This document shows, piece after piece, positions 27,532-39,047 of a stretch of 49,132 nt of DNA. The notes beneath the pieces are model-generated. The model was not told the origin of the DNA, did not search any database, and was given only the letters and a program-made list of their open reading frames with translations. The position numbers and the translations under genes were made by a program. The stretch comes from an uncultured Lachnospiraceae bacterium. Lineage in GTDB: Bacteria > Bacillota > Clostridia > Lachnospirales > Lachnospiraceae. The stretch spans positions 1 through 49,132 of the forward strand of contig CANOFW010000023.1 in NCBI GenBank assembly GCA_947565425.1, read 5' to 3'. Within the stretch, counting starts at the first letter, position 1; every line of letters starts with the position of its first letter.

Positions 27532-28977
27532 TTAAAGATTCTCAGGCTCCGGTGTTACACGTGGCAAAATAAACCAAAACTCTACACCTTCGGGAAGATT
27601 TTTCACACCGCATTTCCCATTCTGCATCGTAACGACATTCTGTACAATGTACAGACCCAGCCCAACATGAGAAAGTGCATCCGCACTCTTCTGCTTTGTG
27701 GTGTAGAATCCGCTCCAAATTTTCTCCATGTCTTCTCTTGGTATCTGCCTGCCCGTATTGTAAACACCCACCCGGATATCTTTCTTCTGTTTCTTTAATG
27801 TAACCCTCAGGCTGCCTCCCATACTCATATGCTCAATGGCATTCATCATATAATTATTGACCGCCTGCTCAATATATTCCTGGTCTCCATATACGTAACA
27901 GCCTTCCTCCAAAAATGTTTCCATGTGCAAATGTTTCTTTTTCACCAAACCTTCATATTTGAGGAGAATGTATTCCATAATCTCCTTCATATCCAAGGTT
28001 TTTTGCATCATATCTTCCATATGATGCTCCATCGCTGTAACATCTAAAAGCCTGCTGACCATAGACGCCACTTTCTGCACTTCCTCATGAATAGAGGATA
28101 AATAATACTGTCTCTTCTCCTCCTCCGCATACTCAAGCATCTCCGACTGACTGGAAATTACGGCAAGCGGGGTTTTCAACTCATGTGAGATATTGGCCAT
28201 CAAATCCTTGCGCGCTTTTTCTACGCGCTCCTGATAAATATTCTGACGAAGCTGCTGCCGTCTGTTTTCCTCGATCTGTTCCTCATTTTGCTGAAGCTGC
28301 TCCGCCATACTGTTAATACTGGCAGTGAGTCTTACCGCTTCCTCATATTTTTCACCCCCGGCGGCACGTCTACTTAAATCACCTTCGGCAATCTTTTCTG
28401 CCACATCTGCCAACCCCTCCATGGGTGCAGACAAATTCTTGGAAAACTTCCAGATAATTAAACTGCCCAATAAGAATATAGATACGCTGGCAACAACCAG
28501 AAACTGCTCCGAAGCCCTGCCTGTTCCCAATTTCTGAACAGCGTCTTTGATGACAATATAATAGTCGATTTCATTTTGAGTAATAATTCCGCGGAGTTTC
28601 GTTGTCTCCTTTAACTTACTATTTCGCTTTATAACCCCGGGTTCCCTGGAAAATAACTGCTTTTTCATCTCTATATTTTTGTAAATGAGATATTTTTGGT
28701 TCTCCCGTGTCGTATAAATCGCATTCAACTCCTCATCCGCAATCGTAAAACTGAGATTCTCCTGCTCATAATCTGCAAAAACAGAATAATCCTCCTCCCG
28801 CAGATTAGCCAAGTCAAGATCCTCAATATCCAAATAAGCCTCATGAATCTGCTTGTTCTTCGTCATATCATAATACAACGGAAAAAAAACTTTATAACAT
28901 AATACACAACATCCGATAATGATCAGTGCCAATATCCAATATGTCATAAAGATCCATGCGCTAATTTTTCTTTTCAT
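27532..28977 (-). CDS. Sensor histidine kinase
   Basis: A 481-residue membrane kinase. The first transmembrane helix is at about 8-30, followed by an extracytoplasmic sensor of about 125 residues, the second helix at 158-177, a HAMP linker (APMEGLADVAEKIAEGDLS), a coiled coil rich in Gln/Glu, the phosphoacceptor His265 in ISHELKTPL, the N box (VNNYMMNAIEH), and the ATP lid GLGLYIV. It overlaps the response regulator by 17 nt. Being the last gene of the operon with cysD, cysNC and the sulfotransferase, it may sense something related to sulfation or the cell envelope (inference). Confidence 0.93.
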   Translation of the reverse strand: MKRKISAWIFMTYWILALIIIGCCVLCYKVFFPLYYDMTKNKQIHEAYLDIEDLDLANLREEDYSVFADYEQENLSFTIADEELNAIYTTRENQKYLIYKNIEMKKQLFSREPGVIKRNSKLKETTKLRGIITQNEIDYYIVIKDAVQKLGTGRASEQFLVVASVSIFLLGSLIIWKFSKNLSAPMEGLADVAEKIAEGDLSRRAAGGEKYEEAVRLTASINSMAEQLQQNEEQIEENRRQQLRQNIYQERVEKARKDLMANISHELKTPLAVISSQSEMLEYAEEEKRQYYLSSIHEEVQKVASMVSRLLDVTAMEHHMEDMMQKTLDMKEIMEYILLKYEGLVKKKHLHMETFLEEGCYVYGDQEYIEQAVNNYMMNAIEHMSMGGSLRVTLKKQKKDIRVGVYNTGRQIPREDMEKIWSGFYTTKQKSADALSHVGLGLYIVQNVVTMQNGKCGVKNLPEGVEFWFILPRVTPEPENL

Positions 28978-29650
28978 TTCCTTTTACCTCAAAACAATAC
29001 CCTACGCCATATACCGTTCGTATATAGGAAGTGTCGCCCAGTTTCTTCCTGAGCTGTTTCACCAACGTATCAATCGTACGAACGTCTCCAACATAGTAAT
29101 CACCCCAAATGGTATCAAGAATATAATCCCTCGTAAGCACTGCTCCCTGATTACGGATTAAGATATGAAGAAGCTCAAATTCCTTGGGTGTTGTCTCTAT
29201 GAACGTGCCTTTCACATAGACTTTCTTGGCCTTGACTTCGATTTTAATATCCCCGGCATAGAGGAAATCTCTTCCGTAACCATAACGCTTGAGCACTGCT
29301 TCAATATGTAATTTTACAATTGATAATGTATACGGTTTTATAATGTAATCATCCGCGCCATAAGAAAAACCTTTTATCTGATCTTCCTCTTCTTCTTTCG
29401 CCGTCAATAAAATTACCGGCACATTAGAACATAAACGAATCTGCTTTAGTACCTCATATCCATCGACAAAAGGAAGCATTACGTCCAGCAGCACAATATC
29501 TATCTCTGTCTGGTGTGTATTAAATTTCTGTATCGCATCCAATCCATCGGTTGCCTGTATGATATGGAAATGGTTTATCTCGAGAAAATCTGATAAGGTC
29601 TCCAACAGTTTGGCTTCATCTTCAACCAGCAATACTGTTGCCCCATCCAT
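28961..29650 (-). CDS. OmpR/PhoB-family response regulator
   Basis: A 229-residue regulator. Receiver domain with the acidic pair in LLVEDEAK, phosphoacceptor Asp56 in VLLDVMLP, and the switch Lys in VILLTAKEEE. The C-terminal winged helix has TPKEFELLHILIRNQGAVLT and DTLVKQLRKKLG, ending in a typical VYGVGYCFE. GGAGGAG lies before the ATG. It starts 12 nt after the sulfotransferase gene, so it is co-transcribed with it. The target genes are not known. Confidence 0.95.
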   Translation of the reverse strand: MDGATVLLVEDEAKLLETLSDFLEINHFHIIQATDGLDAIQKFNTHQTEIDIVLLDVMLPFVDGYEVLKQIRLCSNVPVILLTAKEEEEDQIKGFSYGADDYIIKPYTLSIVKLHIEAVLKRYGYGRDFLYAGDIKIEVKAKKVYVKGTFIETTPKEFELLHILIRNQGAVLTRDYILDTIWGDYYVGDVRTIDTLVKQLRKKLGDTSYIRTVYGVGYCFEVKGNEKKN

Positions 29651-29662
29651 AAATACTCCTCC

Positions 29663-30835
29663 CTATTGTGATGCTTCATTCCATAATATTCTTTTTACTT
29701 TACGGTAACCTCTTGTTACCAAGTTACCCTTGTTACCCATACCTGTAATCCCCACTCTCTTCTCCAATTCTTCTATTCTGGCATTTAAGTCCATGATCTC
29801 CATCTCATATTTACAGAACATCTCCACTAAAAACGTCATCATATCCCGGTTCATCGTGCTCTCATTTACTTTCCATTTTGGAAGGTTACGAATTGGCTCA
29901 CGGAACAAAATGCCATCCTTCCTGCCAAGGAATTCCTGCGCCACCCTCCGATTGCTCTCTTCAAACTGCTGCATAAAAGACGTCTGTTCCTCATAGGACA
30001 GCATATTCGTCTTCTCAAAATCTTTTTGCGCCGCCTGATGCACACTCGCAGCCACCATTTCATTCCACATAAAGTTATTCAACTCTAAGTATTCCGGCAT
30101 AGTGTTCATCATCCGCTTCAACTCAATGAAATTACCGCTGAGTCCAAAGTTTGCCTCTTCCTCGCCGTATTCAAAATCATCCGTCAACTCAACGCCAATC
30201 GTCCGCAAATAATCGGACAAAAGTGTATTGCCTCCTCCCTCAAACTGACCGCGCTCAAACACCCGCACAAGTAAATTTTCTTTGCCTACGAAATCGGAAA
30301 TTTTCTTCAGATGTGCATAATAATCAACCGGGAACCACTTATATTTCTTTTCCCCCATCCAAGAGTCAAAGTCATCTGTGATACACGGCATTTTTTTTAC
30401 ACGCTGGTTCCAGAGAGATTGCAGCACCTGATCCTGCCTGCGCAGGTATACTACCACTTTGACTTCACAATTGATTTTCTTAAATTCCTCTACCATCTCC
30501 TGCCAAAAGCCTTTATATTTATTGGACTGATACCAGATAATCTCATCGGAAAGCACAATATTGGGATACTCCTTGGCAACCTGGGCAAGAAGCTCGTACG
30601 CTTCCTCCCGTTTCTTCTTCTCCTCCGCATGATTCCTCTTTCTTGACTCATTACGCGAAAGATACGCCAAAAAATGCCCATTTCGATACTTATACGTGGT
30701 ATAAAATCCCAGAGATTCCAAGCGCGGATAACTATATCCCTGCTTATTCAGCGCCTCTTCGTTCAATGCCATAAAACGCTGCAAAAATGTTGTCCCTGTC
30801 TTCTGTGTCCCTATACATAAATATACTGTTGCCAT
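29663..30835 (-). CDS. PAPS-dependent sulfotransferase
   Basis: A predicted cytoplasmic sulfotransferase, 390 residues. The 5'-phosphosulfate binding loop is GTQKTGTTFLQ (residues 9-19). A likely 3'-phosphate motif is VVVYLRRQDQVLQSLW, with Arg and Ser in the expected spacing. The C-terminus has a short coiled coil (MEIMDLNARIEELEKRVG) and a basic tail. The start at 30835 follows GGAGGAG. It lies 39 nt after cysNC, which makes PAPS, and no cysH-type reductase is in the window. The acceptor could be a glycan, lipid or small molecule; sequence does not say which. Confidence 0.85.
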   Translation of the reverse strand: MATVYLCIGTQKTGTTFLQRFMALNEEALNKQGYSYPRLESLGFYTTYKYRNGHFLAYLSRNESRKRNHAEEKKKREEAYELLAQVAKEYPNIVLSDEIIWYQSNKYKGFWQEMVEEFKKINCEVKVVVYLRRQDQVLQSLWNQRVKKMPCITDDFDSWMGEKKYKWFPVDYYAHLKKISDFVGKENLLVRVFERGQFEGGGNTLLSDYLRTIGVELTDDFEYGEEEANFGLSGNFIELKRMMNTMPEYLELNNFMWNEMVAASVHQAAQKDFEKTNMLSYEEQTSFMQQFEESNRRVAQEFLGRKDGILFREPIRNLPKWKVNESTMNRDMMTFLVEMFCKYEMEIMDLNARIEELEKRVGITGMGNKGNLVTRGYRKVKRILWNEASQ

Positions 30836-30874
30836 GCTCTCCTCCAGCAATACATAATCTTTCACCTGTGCAGC

Positions 30875-32701
30875 TTACCAACGTTCTTCCAGGCGTTTTA
30901 AAATAATCTCCACACATTCATCCAGACTGTGCTTGCTCGTATCTACCGTAATGTCAGGATTCTCCGGTTCTTCGTATTTCGCAGATATGCCCGTAAAATT
31001 AGCTATCTGTCCTAATCTTGCCTTCCGGTAAAGTCCTTTGACATCTCTCTTTTCACATTCTTCTAACGGTGTGCTCACATATACTTCAATAAAATGCTCG
31101 CCAATGATTTCTTTGGCATTTCTTCTATCCATTTTATAAGGTGAAATAAATGCAGTCAGCACAATCAAGCCCGCGTCATTCATCAATTTGCTGACCTCGG
31201 CAATCCTGCGGATATTCTCAATCCGGTCATTTTCCGCAAAACCGAGGTTCTTATTAAGCCCCATTCTTACGTTATCTCCATCGAGAATCATGGTATGTTT
31301 ACCCATCGCAAACAGACGCTTCTCCAGTTCATTGGCAAGCGTAGATTTACCAGAACCGGAAAGTCCCGTCATCCAAATTGTAGCCGCTCTCTGTTCCAAT
31401 GCGCTCTCACGCATTTGTCTGGTAATGTCCATATTATGCCAGGTAAGATTTCCATCTCTCGTAAGCGGGTACATCACTACGCCGCAGGCAGACGTCATAT
31501 TTGTAATGCGGTCAATCAAAATCAGCGAACCCAGTTCCCGATTATTCTCAAAACGGTCAAATACAATGTTGCTACCCACAGAAATCTCACAAAAAGCAAT
31601 CTCATTCTTATAGATTGCATCTGCATAAACTTCTGCGCCTGTATTTACATCAACTTTATACTTAATATTCATTACCGTAGCAGGAATCATCTGCGTACCA
31701 ATCTTCAACCAGAAAATACGCCCTGATACCAGGCGGTTATCATCCATCCATAACAAAGACACCGCCAGCATATTCCCCACATGTAACTCATACTCATTCT
31801 GCAAGATACATCCTCTGGAAATATCAATCTCTGTATCGAGCTGAATGGTTACAGCCTGTCCTCTGCCGCTCTTTTCCACTTCCTTATCGCCCTGGAAAAT
31901 CTTTGTCACCTTGGCGCTCTCCTTGCTCGGCATTACCGTCAACGTATCTCCTACGGCAACCTCCCCGGAAGAAATCTGCCCCTGAAATCCACGAAATTCA
32001 TGGTTCGGACGGCATACTCTCTGCACCGGCATAGAAAAGCCTTTCCAGTCGTCTTTCTCGTTCACGTTCACTTCTTCCAGATAAGCAAGAAGCGTTTCCT
32101 TCGTATACCATGGCATTTTTTTCGACTTGGTTGTGATATTATCCCCTTCTGTCGCTGAGACTGGGATAATCCTCAGCGTTCCATAATCAAATTCCGCCAT
32201 CAGAATCTTGATATCTTTCTCGATCTTTTTAAATTTCATCTGGTCATAATGAACGAGATCCATCTTGTTCACGGCAAACACAAAATGCCGGATTCCCATC
32301 AACGAACAAATCCTGGCATGTCGTCTGGTCTGCACCAGCACGCCCTGGCTGGCATCCACAAGAATCACAGCAAGAGACGCAAAGCTCGCTCCTACCGCCA
32401 TATTGCGCGTATATTCCTCATGTCCCGGTGTATCCGCCACAATAAAACTTCTGCGTTCCGTACTAAAATAGCGATATGCCACATCTATGGTAATCCCCTG
32501 TTCACGCTCTGCCATCAAGCCATCCAGCAAAAGTGAATAATCAATCTTTCCTTCCCTGGAGCCAACCTTGGAATCGAGCTCCAGCGCACGCTTTTGATCT
32601 GCAAAAAGCAATTTTGCATCATAAAGCATATGCCCAATCAGCGTAGACTTTCCATCATCGACGCTCCCACATGTAATAAATTTCAATAAATTATCTTCCA
32701 T
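30875..32701 (-). CDS. cysNC: Bifunctional sulfate adenylyltransferase subunit 1 / APS kinase
   Basis: A 608-residue fusion. The N-terminal GTPase of ATP sulfurylase (CysN) has GSVDDGKS (12-19), DTPGH (90-94) and NKMD (145-148). The C-terminal APS kinase (CysC) begins near residue 425, with P-loop GLSGSGKS (446-453) and DGDNVR (474-479). Together with CysD it converts sulfate to APS and then PAPS. It starts 2 nt after the cysD stop codon and has only a weak ribosome site, so translation is probably coupled. The length matches known CysNC fusions. Confidence 0.96.
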   Translation of the reverse strand: MEDNLLKFITCGSVDDGKSTLIGHMLYDAKLLFADQKRALELDSKVGSREGKIDYSLLLDGLMAEREQGITIDVAYRYFSTERRSFIVADTPGHEEYTRNMAVGASFASLAVILVDASQGVLVQTRRHARICSLMGIRHFVFAVNKMDLVHYDQMKFKKIEKDIKILMAEFDYGTLRIIPVSATEGDNITTKSKKMPWYTKETLLAYLEEVNVNEKDDWKGFSMPVQRVCRPNHEFRGFQGQISSGEVAVGDTLTVMPSKESAKVTKIFQGDKEVEKSGRGQAVTIQLDTEIDISRGCILQNEYELHVGNMLAVSLLWMDDNRLVSGRIFWLKIGTQMIPATVMNIKYKVDVNTGAEVYADAIYKNEIAFCEISVGSNIVFDRFENNRELGSLILIDRITNMTSACGVVMYPLTRDGNLTWHNMDITRQMRESALEQRAATIWMTGLSGSGKSTLANELEKRLFAMGKHTMILDGDNVRMGLNKNLGFAENDRIENIRRIAEVSKLMNDAGLIVLTAFISPYKMDRRNAKEIIGEHFIEVYVSTPLEECEKRDVKGLYRKARLGQIANFTGISAKYEEPENPDITVDTSKHSLDECVEIILKRLEERW

Positions 32702-32703
32702 AA

Positions 32704-33597
32704 TCAGAAATATCCCTCTCGTTTTCTTTTCTCCATGCTGGCTGACCCGCCATCTGAATCAATAATACGGCTTGTCCTCTCTGACTCCACAGAAGACAAT
32801 GTTTCCTCTATAATTGCATCTAATGTATCCGCCTCCGATTCCATAGCTCCGGTCAGCGGATAACAGCCAAGCGTACGGAATCTCACCTTGCGCGTCTCAA
32901 CAACTTCTCCTTCTTTGAGCTTAATCCTGTCATCATCTACCATAATCAACTGCCCATCTCTGGAAATTACAGGACGCGGCGCAGCAAAATACAAGGAAAC
33001 GATGGGTATGTTCTCCCTGCGGATATACTGCCAAATATCTTTCTCCGTCCAGTTAGACAGCGGAAATACGCGAATACTCTCTCCCTGCTTGATTCTGGTA
33101 TTAAACAGCTTCCACATCTCCGGCCTTTGATTCTTGGGATCCCAAGCATGACTCTCGTTGCGGAAAGAAAAAATACGCTCCTTCGCCCTCGACTTCTCCT
33201 CATCTCTTCTGCCACCACCAAATGCAGCCGTAAATCCATACTTGTCCAATGCCTGCTTCAAAGCCTGGGTCTTCATGATATCGGTATAGGAGGAACCATG
33301 GTCAAACGGGTTAATTCCTTGCTGTACCCCTTCCTCATTAATATATTCAATCATTTCAATCCCCAGCTTTTTCGCGGTCTCATCCCGGAACTTAATCATC
33401 TCCGCAAACTTCCATGTAGTATTCACATGCAGAAACGGAAATGGCGGTTTCTCAGGGTAAAAGGCTTTCATTGCCAGATGCAGCATTACGGAAGAGTCCT
33501 TTCCTATCGAATAGAGCATCACCGGCTTCTCACATTCCGCCGCTACCTCACGCATAATATAGATTGCCTCTGCCTCCAATTCATCTAAATGATCCAT
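32704..33597 (-). CDS. cysD: Sulfate adenylyltransferase subunit 2
   Basis: ATP-pyrophosphatase subunit that adenylates sulfate, 297 residues. The PP-loop is SIGKDSS (30-36), with [24 protein letters not shown] and [15 protein letters not shown] further on. The last residues (GYF preceded by a basic EKRKREG) match family C-termini. The start at 33597 is chosen because GGAGG lies 5 nt before it; the in-frame ATG at 33609 overlaps that site. It is the first gene of the operon. The 200 nt upstream are very A/T-rich with several TATAAT-like hexamers, so the promoter cannot be picked with certainty. Confidence 0.96.
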
Positions 33598-33818
33598 TTT
33601 ATCCTCCATTTATTTTATAAAATTCTTCAATTTCTCTATTTATATTGTTCACTTTCAAGCTATTATTTACAAATATTGTTTACATATTAGAACTGCCTCA
33701 TTCATTATATACAGCAATTATGATAGAAATTTGAGATAATTATATTATATATAGAATATGCAAAATACTCCCAAATTAATGCAAAAATCAACACATATTC
33801 GTATATTTTCCCAAAAAA

Positions 33819-33899: not shown

Positions 33900-34261
33900 G
33901 GGGACACACTAGCATAAATTACAAGCTATGATTCGTTCAAAAGGTTTGCATTGCTTTGCAATGTAAACAACATGCACAAAAATTATCTTGGGGCTGTCGC
34001 ACTAACATAAATTATAAGTTATGATTCGTTTAAAAGGTTTGCATTGCTTCGCAATGTAAACAACATGCACAAAAATTATCTTGGGAAGCTAGCTTCCCTG
34101 AGTGATTTTTGTGCATTCTGTCTTTGCCGCATAAGCGGTAAGACCTTTTAAACGAGTAAATAGATTCGTGCGACATCCCCAGAGTGATGTTTGTTCATTC
34201 TGTCTTTGCCGCATAAGCGGCAAGACCTTTTGAACGAGTAAATATATTAGCGCGACATCCC
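33900..34261. repeat. Nested family A elements: one copy inserted into another
   Basis: An inner full copy (33990-34180; ends GGGGCTGTCGCAC and GTGCGACATCCCC) splits an outer copy. The outer left half (33900-33989) begins GGGGACACACTAGCATAA and stops at ATTATCTTG; the outer right half (34181-34261) resumes at AGAGTGAT and ends GCGCGACATCCC. In intact copies these two edges flank the central stem. The last base of the outer copy is the last base of the stop codon of the neighbouring gene. Confidence 0.85.
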
Positions 34262-34656
34262 TAACTCTTCTTAATAAATTCTTCCTTGCATTTCGGACAG
34301 GTAATACAAATCCTCCCTTTCCCCTTAGGCACTCTCACTTTCTGCTTACAGGACGGACAGCGATAAAATCGATAATCCCTGCGTTGTTTGAAATGTTCCC
34401 ACTCCCGGTTCCAATAAACCACTAGGCGGTATCTTCCATTCAGGTACTTTTGATTCTCCGCATATCTTTGTTCAATCCGCCTAGACATCATACGATAATA
34501 CTCATACGCCATGACCGCTAGTGCGAATATATAAAAAATATCCAGTCTGGTAAACAGCGAAAACAACAGGAATACAATAGAAATTCCCATCAATAACCGT
34601 CCGAGCTGATCCGCTCCATATCTTCCTATCATAAAATGCTGTATCTTCTGTTTCAT
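34261..34656 (-). CDS. Membrane protein with C-terminal zinc ribbon (131 aa)
   Basis: A 131-residue protein. Two short hydrophobic stretches (LGRLLMGISIVFLLFSLFT; IFYIFALAVMAYEYY) form a membrane hairpin, then a basic linker (RRIEQRYAENQKYLNGRY). A C-terminal zinc ribbon has CPSC and CPKC separated by about 20 residues. AGGAGAC lies before the start at 34656. This architecture is common in Clostridia, often near rnpB. Function unknown. The stop codon borders a palindromic element. Confidence 0.75.
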   Translation of the reverse strand: MKQKIQHFMIGRYGADQLGRLLMGISIVFLLFSLFTRLDIFYIFALAVMAYEYYRMMSRRIEQRYAENQKYLNGRYRLVVYWNREWEHFKQRRDYRFYRCPSCKQKVRVPKGKGRICITCPKCKEEFIKKS

Positions 34657-34810
34657 CTCTCTGTCTCCTGTGCGGTATGTTTCCTTCATGGTAGCGCAGA
34701 AAATCCAGGAAGTCAATGGAGTTATTTTCTTTTTAGAATTGTTTATGATTTGGTAATAAATCACGTATATACAAAAGTCATATTGGCGATTGAAACTGTT
34801 ATCTGTATAA

Positions 34811-35158
34811 ATAAGCAGGGCGGTAAGCCGGGTTATGTCGTGGATAATCATCTATCTAGCCCGGCTGTCACCAGCCGGATCTTGCGACCTACCTAAAGCT
34901 AGCGGGCCGCGTCAACGCTTTCGTTCGGTCTTGCTTCGGATGGGGTTTACATGTGCCCTGCCCGTTACCGGACAGGCGGTAGTCTCTTACACTGCCCTTC
35001 CACCCTTACTACTTGCAAAGCAAATAGCGGTACATTTCTGTTGCACTGTCCTTGGAGTCGCCTCCACCGGCCGTTAGCCGGCATCCTGCCCTGTGAAGCC
35101 CGGACTTTCCTCACCTGCGGTCTTTCGACGCTTGCAGCCGCGATTATCTGCCCTACTT
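34811..35158 (-). ncRNA. rnpB: RNase P RNA, bacterial type A
   Basis: Catalytic RNA that matures tRNA 5' ends, about 348 nt on the minus strand. Recognised from GAGGAAAGTCCGGGCTTCAC (P4 5' side), ACAGAAATGTACCGC (about J11/12 region), CCCATCCGAAGCAAGACC and the 3' part TAGATAGATGATTATC followed by AACCCGGCTTACCGCCCTGC. The ends are set by P1 pairing AGTAGGGC with GCCCTGCT. A TATAAT box lies just upstream of the 5' end on this strand. The exact ends are uncertain by a few bases. Confidence 0.93.
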
Positions 35159-35273
35159 ATTATATAGGAAATGAACAAAACATTTGCGTTTTGATTCGTT
35201 TCCTGCGCCGGATGCACGCCGCAAGCGGTATATTTCCTATGTGCATCCTTGCGGAGCGGTTACGGGGATGTCG

Positions 35274-35437: not shown

Positions 35438-38400
35438 TCAACGAATTTTAATTTTCACGCTCGCCTTCCTATTCGTTCCATCTGTAGAGACGACGCGGAT
35501 AGTGACAGTTTTTCCCTTTCCTGCGCGCTTTGCCGTGACCTTTCCTTTGGAAGTGACTGTCGCATATTTTTTGTTAGAACTGCTCCACTTCAAAGCTTTA
35601 TTCACGGTCTTGCCATTTTTCCCTTGCGCGTTCACAATCGTTTTCAGCGTGACGGTCTTTCCCGTTTTCAGCGTCTTAGGTTTATTTTTTATTGTCACCT
35701 TCTTCACGCCGTATTTCATAATTTTGATACGCACAGACGCATATTTTCGGCTGCCATCTTGAGCGGTCGCTTTGATGGTGACGGTCTTTCCCGTTCCCGC
35801 ACGCTTTGTTGTTACTATGCCTTTGCTGTTTACCGTAGCGTATTTTTTATTGCTACTCGTCCATTTTACCGCAGGATTGCTCACCTTTTTGGGCGTCACG
35901 CTCGCTTTTAAAGTTACTTTTTTTCCAGCGGCAATAAGTTTAGAAGGTTCACTGATAGATATCTTTTTCACCTTCACTTGTGCAGGCGTATTCCCCCCTG
36001 GCGGTGTGTTATTCTCCGGCGGCGTATGATCTCCAGGGTTTTCGTCGTCTCCAGAACCTTCGTTATCTCCTGGGGGCGTGTGATCACCTGGATCTTCCTC
36101 ATCATTTTTCTTTACTGACAACAGCAGGGAAGGCGCCATGTCCGCGTCGGCCTCTGTCATATTCCGCGCTCCTTCGCGGCTGACGAACGCAAGCTCCCAG
36201 CCTTTTGCGTCGCAGACCGCCACAGAAAATGTCTGCGCGTCTTTATCTAATGCGCGCACCCACTCGGTGACGTCAATCGTCACCCTTGTTTTGTCTATTG
36301 CCTGACTTGTGTTATACCGCTTATCCTGCGCCATAATAACATTGTTCTTATCTACCAAAAAGGGAGCTGAAGATTTCACTCCAGAGGTAGGCAGTGCGGG
36401 CATATTCGTCCACTTCAAATCTGTCTCGCTCCAATTCCCCATTACCGGGACTGCCAGCAAGGTGTCTTCTCCCGTTACACGGCTCTCACGGCGCCCAATA
36501 TAAGTAAGCTGAATCTCCGCCTTATCCAACTTTTCCAGGCTCCCTCTAATTTTTGCTGCATCAAATGAGAGAAATGATATTTTTGAATCTCTGCTATCGC
36601 TGGTACTGTTGCCCACTGCCTCGCCAAAAATTCCGACTGCCGAACCATCTGAGAGCGCATCCCCCATACGCAATGTGCGTATGTAATCCTGCGTGCCGTA
36701 ATACTCCTCTTTTTCACTCTGATAAGATTTCACGGTTGCATCAGCAAGGGCTTCCAGCACAACAGTCTCTAATTTTGCAGATTTCACATATATCTCAACG
36801 CTCTTTTTTGTAACCTCATGTTTGTCAGAGGCCATAAAAACTACCGTATACTTACCAACTTGCTCCTCCTTGGGCGTCCAGGTGAATTGACCCGTGGCAG
36901 AAGTGAACGAAGCTCCTTCAGGCAAACTTCCTTCTATGCTAAGCGTAACTGCTTCCTCGTCCACATCCTCCGCCTGCACAATAAATTCCAGCATTTTGCC
37001 CGCTTCTATTTCCTGCATACTGAAAGATGGATTGGTAAATACTGGAGCATGATTGTCAATCCAATCATGAACGTCGTTTGTAACTTCCGTTGCTGTCAAC
37101 TTTGCCTGGCTGCTGACTGTCACCCGCTCCCCGCCTACAAAATGATTCGTAACGGCCAAGTCATTGACATTACTAATATAACTTCCCGCATCACCATTGG
37201 AAAACCAGCAGCCGTCCATTGTCACGCTGGCAATTTTATGCTCAGCGTCAAGTCCGTTGATATTAAAGTTTGTGCCAACCCGGGTAGTATCAAAAGAACA
37301 ATTCGTAAACGCCAGCGATTCATAACGCGGATAAGGCCGCTTATTTCCTGTCCCATTTTGTACTGTAATCCCGTTGCCGCCCCCGGTAAAATTGGTAGTG
37401 TTTACATTGGTAAACGTGTAATCTTTCATGGCATGCCCATAAGCATCATGTCCCAGACGGATGCCATTACCACCACCAAAACTCCAGCCCAGCGTATTGC
37501 TGACGGACACGCCGAAGGAATCCTCTGTGTCCCATTGCAGGCAATCGCTATTATACTGGTCATACCCCGGAACTGTATTCGGGAATCCATCGCTGGGATT
37601 GTAGTGCCCGCTGGCAAAATTGTCGTCATTTCCCATGGTCAGCGCGCCATTAATCGTCAAGTTCTGTGCACTCGCCATATCAAGTCCGTCCACCCAAGGC
37701 TGATTATAAGGCGTGAGTCCCTTGACATTATTGAGCGTACAATTTTTGCTTCCATGGGATTCCCAATTCCACTGTTTGGTATCGCGCACATAAGTGTCCT
37801 GAAATACGATATTGGAAGAACGCACAATCATCACACCGCCCTGATGACAGCTATCCTTCGCATCATGACGGTCTTTTCTGTAATTCTCCACCCCGTTCCC
37901 ATCAAATATTCCCCTGCCGGAAATCGTAATATCCGCGGAATCCCATATTCCAATCGCCGGCTCCATCGCCTGCATGCATTCCTGGATGCGGTTTTTCACT
38001 AACGCCCCTTCTTCCAGATAAATCGTGACATGCTTCCCCTGACGGCCACGAATTTCCAAACCGGAACATATATACGTTCCCGCTGGGAAATACAAGGTAT
38101 CATAAGAAGAGCCATCCGCATAAATAACATCCAAGGCTGCCTGTAACGCAAAGCTCGCATCGTCTGTTGTCATCTTGCGCTTATCGGGGAATCGAACCTG
38201 CGCTGTACCATTATCTACGAGTTGCCCGGCCTCATAAGACGTGCCGCCAGACGTTGTGCCCGCTGGCTGTGCCTGCTGCGCCAAAGAATTTGGATGCTCC
38301 TGCAAATACTGCTCCATAAACGTCTTAAAATTTAATACGTTAGCATCCGCGGGATTGGGAATCTCCCCTGTTACCTCAGGTGGGTCATTGATGATAGCGA

Positions 38401-38863
38401 GATACGGCTTGCCTGCCTGATCTGCTGGTCCACCGTTAATCATCACAAACGCATAGCGCAGTTTGTCGGACATAGTAAATGTCAAGCTGCGCTTATCATC
38501 GCTAATACGAAGCGCTTCCTTTGGATAATAACGCTGCGGGTAGACTGTCACTTCCTTAATCTCCTCCGACACTTGCACGGTATATTCCGGCGTAACGTCC
38601 GCAGACGCAAAACGAGCAATATCAAAGTTATTCCCATTGCGATTATACTTGATAACCGGTACTTCTACGCCGTTCGCCGTCAACGTGTATTTGCTTGATG
38701 TCTCATCCCCCGGCGTGTCCGCATAAATATGTACCTCCCCTTCTGATGCCTTTGCTCTATACATCTGCGGTTGAGGAAATACAAAAAAATTTCCCAAAAC
38801 CAGGAAAAACACCACTGCCAGGGAAATTGCCTTTTGCCTCTTACCCTTCTGCCTCTTTCCCAT
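35438..38863 (-). CDS. Secreted beta-helix glycosidase-like protein (GH28/GH49 fold) with Ig and Big2 repeats
   Basis: A 1141-residue secreted protein. The signal peptide is KAISLAVVFFLVLGNFFVF. A dextranase-like N-terminal beta sandwich covers roughly residues 40-150. A right-handed beta-helix follows at about 215-630, with LYFPAGTYICSG, ISGRGIFDGNG, and a GH28/GH49-like catalytic stretch WVDGLDMASAQN then MGNDDNFASG. After it come a He_PIG-type Ig domain (PEGASFTSATGQFTWTP), a DNRLRE/CBM96-like domain (about 700-920), a Pro/Asp-rich linker with repeats of GDHTPP, and two Big2-like repeats (WTSSNKKYATV; WSSSNKKYATV). Probably cuts a plant or microbial polysaccharide outside the cell. The start at 38863 follows GGAGGAAGGA. 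Confidence 0.8.
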   Translation of the reverse strand: MGKRQKGKRQKAISLAVVFFLVLGNFFVFPQPQMYRAKASEGEVHIYADTPGDETSSKYTLTANGVEVPVIKYNRNGNNFDIARFASADVTPEYTVQVSEEIKEVTVYPQRYYPKEALRISDDKRSLTFTMSDKLRYAFVMINGGPADQAGKPYLAIINDPPEVTGEIPNPADANVLNFKTFMEQYLQEHPNSLAQQAQPAGTTSGGTSYEAGQLVDNGTAQVRFPDKRKMTTDDASFALQAALDVIYADGSSYDTLYFPAGTYICSGLEIRGRQGKHVTIYLEEGALVKNRIQECMQAMEPAIGIWDSADITISGRGIFDGNGVENYRKDRHDAKDSCHQGGVMIVRSSNIVFQDTYVRDTKQWNWESHGSKNCTLNNVKGLTPYNQPWVDGLDMASAQNLTINGALTMGNDDNFASGHYNPSDGFPNTVPGYDQYNSDCLQWDTEDSFGVSVSNTLGWSFGGGNGIRLGHDAYGHAMKDYTFTNVNTTNFTGGGNGITVQNGTGNKRPYPRYESLAFTNCSFDTTRVGTNFNINGLDAEHKIASVTMDGCWFSNGDAGSYISNVNDLAVTNHFVGGERVTVSSQAKLTATEVTNDVHDWIDNHAPVFTNPSFSMQEIEAGKMLEFIVQAEDVDEEAVTLSIEGSLPEGASFTSATGQFTWTPKEEQVGKYTVVFMASDKHEVTKKSVEIYVKSAKLETVVLEALADATVKSYQSEKEEYYGTQDYIRTLRMGDALSDGSAVGIFGEAVGNSTSDSRDSKISFLSFDAAKIRGSLEKLDKAEIQLTYIGRRESRVTGEDTLLAVPVMGNWSETDLKWTNMPALPTSGVKSSAPFLVDKNNVIMAQDKRYNTSQAIDKTRVTIDVTEWVRALDKDAQTFSVAVCDAKGWELAFVSREGARNMTEADADMAPSLLLSVKKNDEEDPGDHTPPGDNEGSGDDENPGDHTPPENNTPPGGNTPAQVKVKKISISEPSKLIAAGKKVTLKASVTPKKVSNPAVKWTSSNKKYATVNSKGIVTTKRAGTGKTVTIKATAQDGSRKYASVRIKIMKYGVKKVTIKNKPKTLKTGKTVTLKTIVNAQGKNGKTVNKALKWSSSNKKYATVTSKGKVTAKRAGKGKTVTIRVVSTDGTNRKASVKIKIR

Positions 38864-38884
38864 ATTCCTTCCTCCTTCCGCAAA

Positions 38885-39047
38885 GTAACAGTTCAGCCCA
38901 CGCCATTCGCAGAGGTGCCTACGGCACTTTCTCGCTGCTCCGCAGCTAACTTTGCTCATAGAATGGCGTTCCGCTCATCGCCAGCATTATGTGCTCATTC
39001 ATGCTAGTATGATTCGCCCATAAATTTGGCGATGGCTGAACTGTTAC
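38885..39047. repeat. Family B palindromic element, perfect 14-bp ends
   Basis: GTAACAGTTCAGCC (38885-38898) and GGCTGAACTGTTAC (39034-39047) form exact inverted ends. Inside, CACGCCATTCGC, TGGCGTTCCGCTCAT and ATGATTCGCCCA match the copy at 11599-11778. It lies 22 nt upstream of the glycosidase-like start codon, so it probably supplies or separates its promoter. Confidence 0.82.

Follow-up and report, generated by a model that had tools for sequence, protein, structure and literature searches.

We analyzed the whole of contig C23 (49,132 nucleotides; hereafter the window) from the 3.36-Mb, 92.9%-complete genome of an uncultured Lachnospiraceae bacterium, and propose, with a probability of roughly 0.6, that a two-component system for surface modification governs a full sulfation module encoded there. 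The module is a five-gene operon, cysD-cysNC-sulfotransferase (ST)-response regulator (RR)-histidine kinase (HK), the sequence of which makes it nearly certain that the operon provides for both synthesis of 3'-phosphoadenosine 5'-phosphosulfate (PAPS) and sulfotransfer. Genomes, contigs and loci are cited below by our own G, C and L numbers, G000 being the genome that holds the window.

According to our model, HK would read an envelope or outside signal, upon which phosphorylated RR would bind, presumably directly, to an 11-bp direct-repeat box that stands in for the -35 element ahead of cysD. Bound RR would then drive cysD-cysNC-ST-RR-HK, probably by activation as opposed to repression, such that the pair would feed back on its own genes; a DltABCD-like operon on contig C4 would be a further target. 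CysD and CysNC would make PAPS, and ST would transfer the sulfo group onto a glycan or teichoic-acid-like polymer of the cell surface, the presumed substrate, thus adding negative charge. The starting points for this scheme were read from sequence, i.e., gene content and order, co-occurrence, the box and its places, and the fold class of ST.

Gene content of the operon

32704..33597, minus strand: cysD, sulfate adenylyltransferase small subunit (TIGR02039, 489 bits, cut-off 397; frame open from 33609)
30875..32701, minus strand: cysNC, fusion of sulfate adenylyltransferase GTPase subunit and adenosine 5'-phosphosulfate (APS) kinase (NF004035, 839 bits, cut-off 715)
29663..30835 (ATG) or to 30865 (GTG), minus strand: ST, PAPS-dependent sulfotransferase of predicted glycan-type fold
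28961..29650, minus strand: RR, OmpR/PhoB-type response regulator (PF00072, Response_reg; PF00486, Trans_reg_C)
27532..28977, minus strand: HK, sensor histidine kinase (PF00672, HAMP; PF00512, HisKA; PF02518, HATPase)

A first-pass annotation of this DNA had described five genes in one direction, the first two of them as PAPS makers, and both descriptions hold: the gaps (2 nt, 39 nt to the ATG of ST, and 12 nt) and the overlap (17 nt) are as stated there, all five genes lie on the minus strand, and CysD and CysNC both exceed curated family cut-offs. The APS-kinase part of CysNC matches PF01583 (APS_kinase) at 9e-67 and TIGR00455 at 252 bits against a cut-off of 139. As a GGAGG precedes the ATG at 33597, this start is likely for cysD as opposed to one further up the open frame. 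RR and HK have the domains of an OmpR/PhoB two-component pair (receiver plus winged helix; HAMP-HisKA-HATPase), HK with two membrane spans and an outside domain of ~125 aa by eye; the structure model of this sensor domain is poor (mean pLDDT 47). Gene maps here and in relatives come from a simple open reading frame (ORF) caller and not from trained gene-finding software, and the RR of G420 went uncalled by it. The five genes recur in identical order in one sister species (G419), which suggests that the arrangement is more than chance.

A predicted response-regulator box upstream of cysD

33699..33736, minus strand: predicted RR-binding box (38-bp matrix; 33717-33734 matches the shared pattern; over the -35 position)
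~33704-33709, minus strand: cysD -10 element, TATAAT, read by hand

The regions upstream of RR genes have in common TCAAATTTcTATCAcA(a/t)T and, after it, a -10-like element, a pattern that 13 of the 18 RR starts examined match, 12 with at most two mismatches. A 38-bp matrix built from 11 RR promoters, all from other genomes, scores 31.1 bits upstream of cysD and at most 6.3 elsewhere in the window on both strands; in a control, none of 3,194,768 reversed-sequence positions reached 10 bits (maximum 8.9). The conserved 11-bp direct-repeat box (TCAAATTT / TCAcAaTT) is the predicted RR target, its two TCA half-sites lying 11 bp apart and covering the -35 position when the geometry is worked out by hand, as for PhoB-like activators. 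A simple promoter scan returned 20 sites versus 17.2 expected, the cysD box not being among them. The box, found via a matrix of RR promoters, ties the operon to RR-HK. We hold control of the operon by its own pair to be very probable.

Other predicted members of the regulon

Relatives were sampled as 397 genomes of the family, 29 of the genus, and 78 distinct loci from a wider contig scan. With at most one mismatch, the 18-base pattern occurs at 59 sites in the 29 genus genomes, versus 7 for the reversed pattern, and 53 of the 59 fall in the 22 HK-bearing genomes. By our reading of the 59, (i) 17 precede RR (those in G399, G400 and G420 precede a gene leading into RR), (ii) 7 precede cysD, (iii) 19 precede surface-modification genes (G422 C20 and G417 C210 by eye only), and (iv) 16 lie inside genes or before unrelated genes. 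The surface-modification genes are sets, or parts of sets, for a carrier protein, an MBOAT protein, a DltD-like protein and an AMP ligase (G409, G422, G413, G414, G417, G415, G176, G410, G402), or TagF-like genes with TagGH-like genes (G398, G400, G420; at a contig end in G421). Ten surface proteins were compared with Pfam, of which six pass the cut-off (PP-binding, MBOAT, AMP-binding twice, Glyphos_transf, ABC_tran), one falls below it and three have no match; in the other genomes the genes were named by eye. As DltA and DltB of relatives score below NCBIfam cut-offs, we call these sets DltABCD-like. At L236 4996-5053 (G176:C3), three perfect boxes stand exactly 20 bp apart before AMP-ligase and binding-protein genes.

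Within G000, the cysD box is the only match with at most one mismatch; with at most three, 98 sites are found versus 47 for the reversed pattern. Matrix scoring, bounded genome-wide by this limit of three mismatches, took in nearly all of them (97 distinct sites, 437,550 bases, some overlapping), and scores of at least 10 were obtained at cysD (31.1) and at C4:112750-112787 on the minus strand (26.1), the next being 9.6. The C4 box ends 28 bp upstream of a DltABCD-like operon (G000:C4:106507-112722, L382). Its first gene joins a DltA-like ligase to a formyltransferase-like domain; the others encode a carrier protein, a DltB-like protein of the MBOAT family, a protein that by eye is DltD-like, and a WbuX-like sugar amidotransferase (151/203 bits). 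To our knowledge, such a ligase-formyltransferase fusion is unusual; against NCBIfam cut-offs, DltA (300/560 bits), DltC (20.5/52) and DltB (146/375) are all below. No such box lies near the two other DltB-like genes seen in this genome, on C8 and C14. The presence of this second box before a DltABCD-like operon slightly raises the odds of the regulon reading.

Among the 11 genus genomes with cysNC, 7 have the box at cysD with at most one mismatch, and weaker versions stand in G411 and G408 (11.9 bits in G408). Strong cysD boxes occur in G397, G403, G405 and G412 with RR-HK elsewhere; in these four, as in G411 and G408, the pair lies on another contig among other genes, such that control would act in trans. 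A lone ST of G412 (45-47% identity) has a 25.5-bit box ~180 bp upstream, making the box common to three separate loci in that genome (RR-HK, cysD, lone ST). Lone STs of G195, from another genus, and of G408 have sites of 19.6 and 7.3 bits, respectively, and no box stands at the remaining STs that were scored with them.

Conservation across Lachnospiraceae

ST is found in 23 of the 397 family genomes and cysD (E up to 1e-60) in 77, with all 23 contained in the 77 (hypergeometric 2e-18, relatedness not corrected). Conserved co-occurrence of ST with the PAPS genes, suggested as a check at first pass, is seen in relatives: ST accompanies cysD in 23/23 family genomes and cysNC in 10/10 genus genomes. 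In 15 of the 23, by our reading, ST stands in one run with cysD and/or cysNC, some runs holding intervening genes; in G109, ST and the cys genes are divergent. Within the genus, CysNC is encoded in 11/29 genomes (split over two contigs in G407 and with an internal stop in G408), and ST in 10 of those 11 and in 0/18 of the genomes without CysNC.

The wider contig scan, made with one peptide pattern, yielded 367 relatives, from which the 78 distinct loci were kept; their fetched stretches hold CysNC in 46 cases and CysD in 40. OmpR-type RRs make up 15/298 genes within two genes of the ST/cys core versus 4/550 beyond three (p 1e-4; several loci are near relatives and one is G419). At seven loci, the RR is 52-54% like that of the window, being divergent in L305, L307, L315 and L326 and in window order in L337, L350 and L355; box-like sites lie upstream of cysD, ST or RR in L315, weaker ones in others. 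A different RR class is present at L347, L348 and L361, and by eye also in G319 and G407. Cultured commensals are among the carriers of cysD-cysNC-ST, e.g., Hominisplanchenecus murintestinalis NM72_1-8 (L299) and Parablautia sp. Marseille-Q6255 (L315). Two-component pairs beside STs in G143, G140, G319 and G286 were considered as orthologues and rejected on identity (HK 22-27%, RR 31-36%). The clostridial ST family also appears at L301 and L341, in records titled Bacteroidales and Coriobacteriaceae, the title of L301 being probably wrong.

The sulfotransferase and its acceptor

ST has no match in Pfam or NCBIfam up to E 0.001, nor among PDB sequences up to E 1; with no curated family match, its label as a sulfotransferase is given by fold and motif. 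A 5'-phosphosulfate loop had been noticed in this third gene, and an 18-sequence alignment upholds it: K11 and T12, which we take to form this loop, are invariant, as are E97, R131 and S139, of which R131...S139 presumably bind the 3'-phosphate. The predicted fold is that of a sulfotransferase, its best matches being glycan sulfotransferases, with NDST and 3-OST the closest solved folds among the families listed. We lean toward a surface glycan as the acceptor.

A second ST of the same genome (G000:C3:195346-196359, L036; 481 aa, 28-32% to the first) sits among glycosyltransferase-like and sugar-modifying genes and is a second possible PAPS user. In L304, L308 and L312, from deer-gut Lachnospiraceae, five ST genes each stand in tandem, with a TagF-like gene one gene beyond; these runs suggest a polymer sulfated at several positions.

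Alternatively, ST may act on a small molecule, be it a sterol, a bile acid, a phenol or a xenobiotic, much as BT_0416 of Bacteroides sulfates cholesterol, with the sensor pair acting as a stress switch. This would account for an operon without glycan genes, and in gut Bacteroides a PAPS gene set is known beside a small-molecule sulfotransferase, going by the available part of that report (PMC9417993). Set beside the glycan-type fold of ST, we regard such a substrate as unlikely.

History of the two-component pair

When queried with its first 185 residues (the sensor domain), HK has matches in 22/29 genus genomes and in 34 family genomes outside the genus, mostly weak, with 36/397 overall. Twelve of the 22 HK-bearing genus genomes lack CysNC, and 1 of the 11 CysNC genomes (G407, 63% complete) lacks HK. 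RR relatives adjoining HK in the genus are 62-92% identical. The first-pass annotation had taken the pair to be dedicated to sulfation, which this distribution does not bear out. We dismissed a dedicated sensor on three grounds: the spread of HK, a site in G413 without cysD-cysNC-ST, and the second box of G000 before the DltABCD-like operon.

At the G413 site, the order is pectate-lyase-like gene, zinc-ribbon gene (by eye), RR (87%), HK (75%), pyrI, pyrB, and the ORF caller placed nothing between zinc ribbon and RR; G419 holds the full operon at the matching site. G416 carries cysD-cysNC-RR-HK at a second site, beside genes that by eye are TrkA- and DegV-like; at that site, G409 and G417 hold RR-HK but no cys genes. 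The RR promoter of G413 aligns with the cysD promoters of G000 and G419, and an identical 23-bp run lies upstream of cysD in G416 and upstream of RR in G409 and G417. From these alignments, cysD-cysNC(-ST) appears to lie between the pair's promoter and the pair at both chromosomal sites. In the HK tree, ((G000,G419),(G413,G414)) stands beside (G416,(G409,G417)), the placement of G398 being left out as its row was in the wrong frame; the CysNC tree gives (G416,(G000,G419)) at 93/93, below the star threshold. One old cysD-cysNC-RR-HK linkage with two losses and two separate insertions would both fit.

This history also invites a reading in which RR-HK is an old autoregulated pair whose promoter by chance lay beside, or took up, cysD-cysNC-ST, with no meaningful link to the signal. 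G413, with promoter, RR-HK and flanks but without cysD-cysNC-ST, and the aligned promoters are what such passive carriage would leave behind. It would not, however, place a box before cysD in genomes where RR-HK is elsewhere (G397, G403, G405, G412), nor before the lone ST of G412, and at the second chromosomal site in G416 cysD-cysNC again lies directly upstream of RR-HK with the box before cysD. We therefore hold chance capture to be improbable.

Less probable still is peptide or protein sulfation of the Xanthomonas Rax kind. There, raxP and raxQ presumably make PAPS. The set of parts is similar (sulfotransferase, PAPS genes, two-component pair), and in Xanthomonas oryzae raxHR adjoin raxX-raxSTAB in a cluster, according to the accessible portion of PMC8306577. 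No peptide gene or peptidase-ABC exporter was seen around our operon, in ORF lists that stop at 90 aa, such that a shorter peptide could be missed, and the best fold matches of ST are to glycan sulfotransferases.

Fate of PAPS and supply of sulfate

The PAPS made by this operon most likely serves sulfonation, not cysteine synthesis, as had been proposed from the sequence at first pass: no CysH was found in the 92.9%-complete genome, and every ST genome also has cysD. A PF01507 search of G000 returned only CysD and one 439-aa protein that matched no CysH model, and that we take to be IbrA-like, the adjoining 179-aa gene being presumably ParB-like. Its sole NIR_SIR protein (C16, 511 aa) falls below all NCBIfam cut-offs listed, the best being a NirA-family model (138/523 bits), and no sulfur gene was recognized near it. 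Elsewhere in the genus, by contrast, the CysN of G401, G404 and G418 has no APS-kinase match, and next to its gene stand AprA-like (by eye) and sulfite-reductase-like ones. At these loci (L098-L100, for G401, G418 and G404, respectively), CysD-CysN is accompanied, by eye, by AprA-like, small sulfite-reductase-like, thioredoxin-like and CysPTWA-like genes, which likely form an assimilatory route via APS reductase. Assimilation to cysteine as the main use in G000, which the one NIR_SIR protein and a genome 92.9% complete (such that cysH could be missed, in a search that did not include AprA-type APS reductases) would speak for, was rejected given the absence of CysH and a sub-cut-off NIR_SIR protein without sulfur neighbours, and is very improbable.

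Chromate-transporter-like genes often join ST-cysD-cysNC runs (L040 10794-12227; L045, L046), and genes like that of G140, the product of which scores 66/172 bits on TIGR00937, are found in 17 of the 78 fetched loci (L288-L365). These genes, or CysPTWA- or SsuA-like transporters at other loci, may import sulfate.

Evidence that weighs against control of a surface-sulfation module

Several observations run counter to our model of a surface-modification pair in control of sulfation. On the regulatory side, most other STs of the genus that lie away from cysD have no box; G414 has cysNC and HK, yet no box at its cysD; and G421 has the box without an HK match. Among 13 further operon starts, namely that of G407 and 12 in other genera (two being set roughly), the closest match, in G152, shows 2 mismatches; four starts have a match with 3, and the remaining eight have none within 4. 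The kinases beside the seven same-class RRs are just 28-44% like the HK of the window, and HK presence does not track cysNC (10/11 versus 12/18, p 0.20), as passive carriage would also predict. On the biochemical side, polymerase, exporter and glycosyltransferase are all missing from the operon, so the substrate is guessed from fold and regulon. No sulfate importer adjoins the operon, and the chromate-transporter family is absent from G000, where CysPTWA, CysQ and AprA were not searched.

Neighbouring features of the window

35438-38959, minus strand: 1173-aa GH28-like protein with Ig-like (Big_2) repeats, adjoining the operon; relatives stand beside it in G413 and G419
34808-35159, minus strand: bacterial class A RNase P RNA (Rfam RF00010, 296.8 bits), upstream of the operon past the zinc-ribbon gene
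34261-34851: 196-aa ORF overlapping the RNase P RNA; its homologues are of 131-133 aa, which suggests a later start
33907-34259: repeats of 82-86 nt in two tandem pairs (90-94% alike), the junction of the pairs holding an inverted repeat

The repeats, which have the zinc-ribbon gene on one side and the cysD promoter on the other, resemble a small inserted repeat element. The corresponding spacer in G413 is only ~320 bp, in which no such repeats were seen by eye.

Comparison with known systems

Gram-positive dlt operons stand under two-component control, e.g., by GraRS or VirRS, with OmpR-type pairs tuning surface charge. Our system is alike in that its box precedes DltABCD-like genes in G000 and in relatives, and unlike in that its linked output is sulfation, which adds negative charge, and not D-alanylation alone. 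A wider reading, which we put forward tentatively and at somewhat less than even odds, is that in gut Clostridia one envelope-sensing two-component family drives D-alanylation-like and teichoic-acid-like genes together with PAPS synthesis and a heparan-type sulfotransferase, such that the coat is sulfated, in a manner resembling host glycosaminoglycans, on signal only. If true, common gut commensals could switch on sulfated surface polymers through a widespread clostridial ST family, their own PAPS supply and an envelope sensor, which would bear on mucus binding, resistance to cationic peptides, phage and immune recognition, and the sulfate economy of the gut. Relatives without cys genes would serve as natural controls.

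Sulfated extracellular polysaccharides were called unique to cyanobacteria among bacteria in a 2021 paper (PMC8205485, in the part available), with Cobetia as an apparent marine exception; in the gut, what is known of sulfation concerns small molecules of Bacteroides, as far as the accessible text of PMC9417993 describes. The first-pass suggestion that a clostridial sulfation operon with its own sensor may be new can be kept in part. Two-component control of sulfation has a precedent in the synechan (xss) cluster of Synechocystis 6803, where genes for a sulfated extracellular polysaccharide are so regulated (PMC8205485, available part). Our searches of the open-licence literature brought up, among the results listed, no report of a clostridial operon that joins PAPS and sulfotransferase genes to a two-component pair, and what is new, as far as our searches show, is the tie of sulfation to a D-alanylation/teichoic-acid-like regulon in gut Clostridia.

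Closest in logic to the operon are synechan, the Bacteroides cholesterol cluster and Rax. Synechan shares extracellular-polysaccharide sulfotransferases under a linked sensor kinase and response regulator, XssS/XssR; it differs as a whole Wzx/Wzy cluster on a cyanobacterial megaplasmid with a third regulator, XssQ, and cysD/cysNC are not named among the xss genes in the available part of the paper (PMC8205485). Our operon contains no polymerase or glycosyltransferase of its own to match that cluster. In Bacteroides BT_0411-BT_0416, putative PAPS-synthesis genes likewise stand beside a sulfotransferase in a gut commensal; there, the substrate has been shown to be a sterol, the genes respond to cholesterol, one is a proposed sulfate importer, and the accessible text mentions no two-component pair (PMC9417993). 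Xanthomonas raxX-raxSTAB/raxHR is unlike our system in being Gram-negative and sulfating a secreted peptide, with a regulatory link that the available text calls not yet determined (PMC8306577). It is alike in that, by the same partial source, a sulfotransferase gene set lies close to a two-component pair whose conservation is wider than that of the sulfotransferase genes themselves and which is linked to envelope (lipid A) remodelling (PMC8306577).

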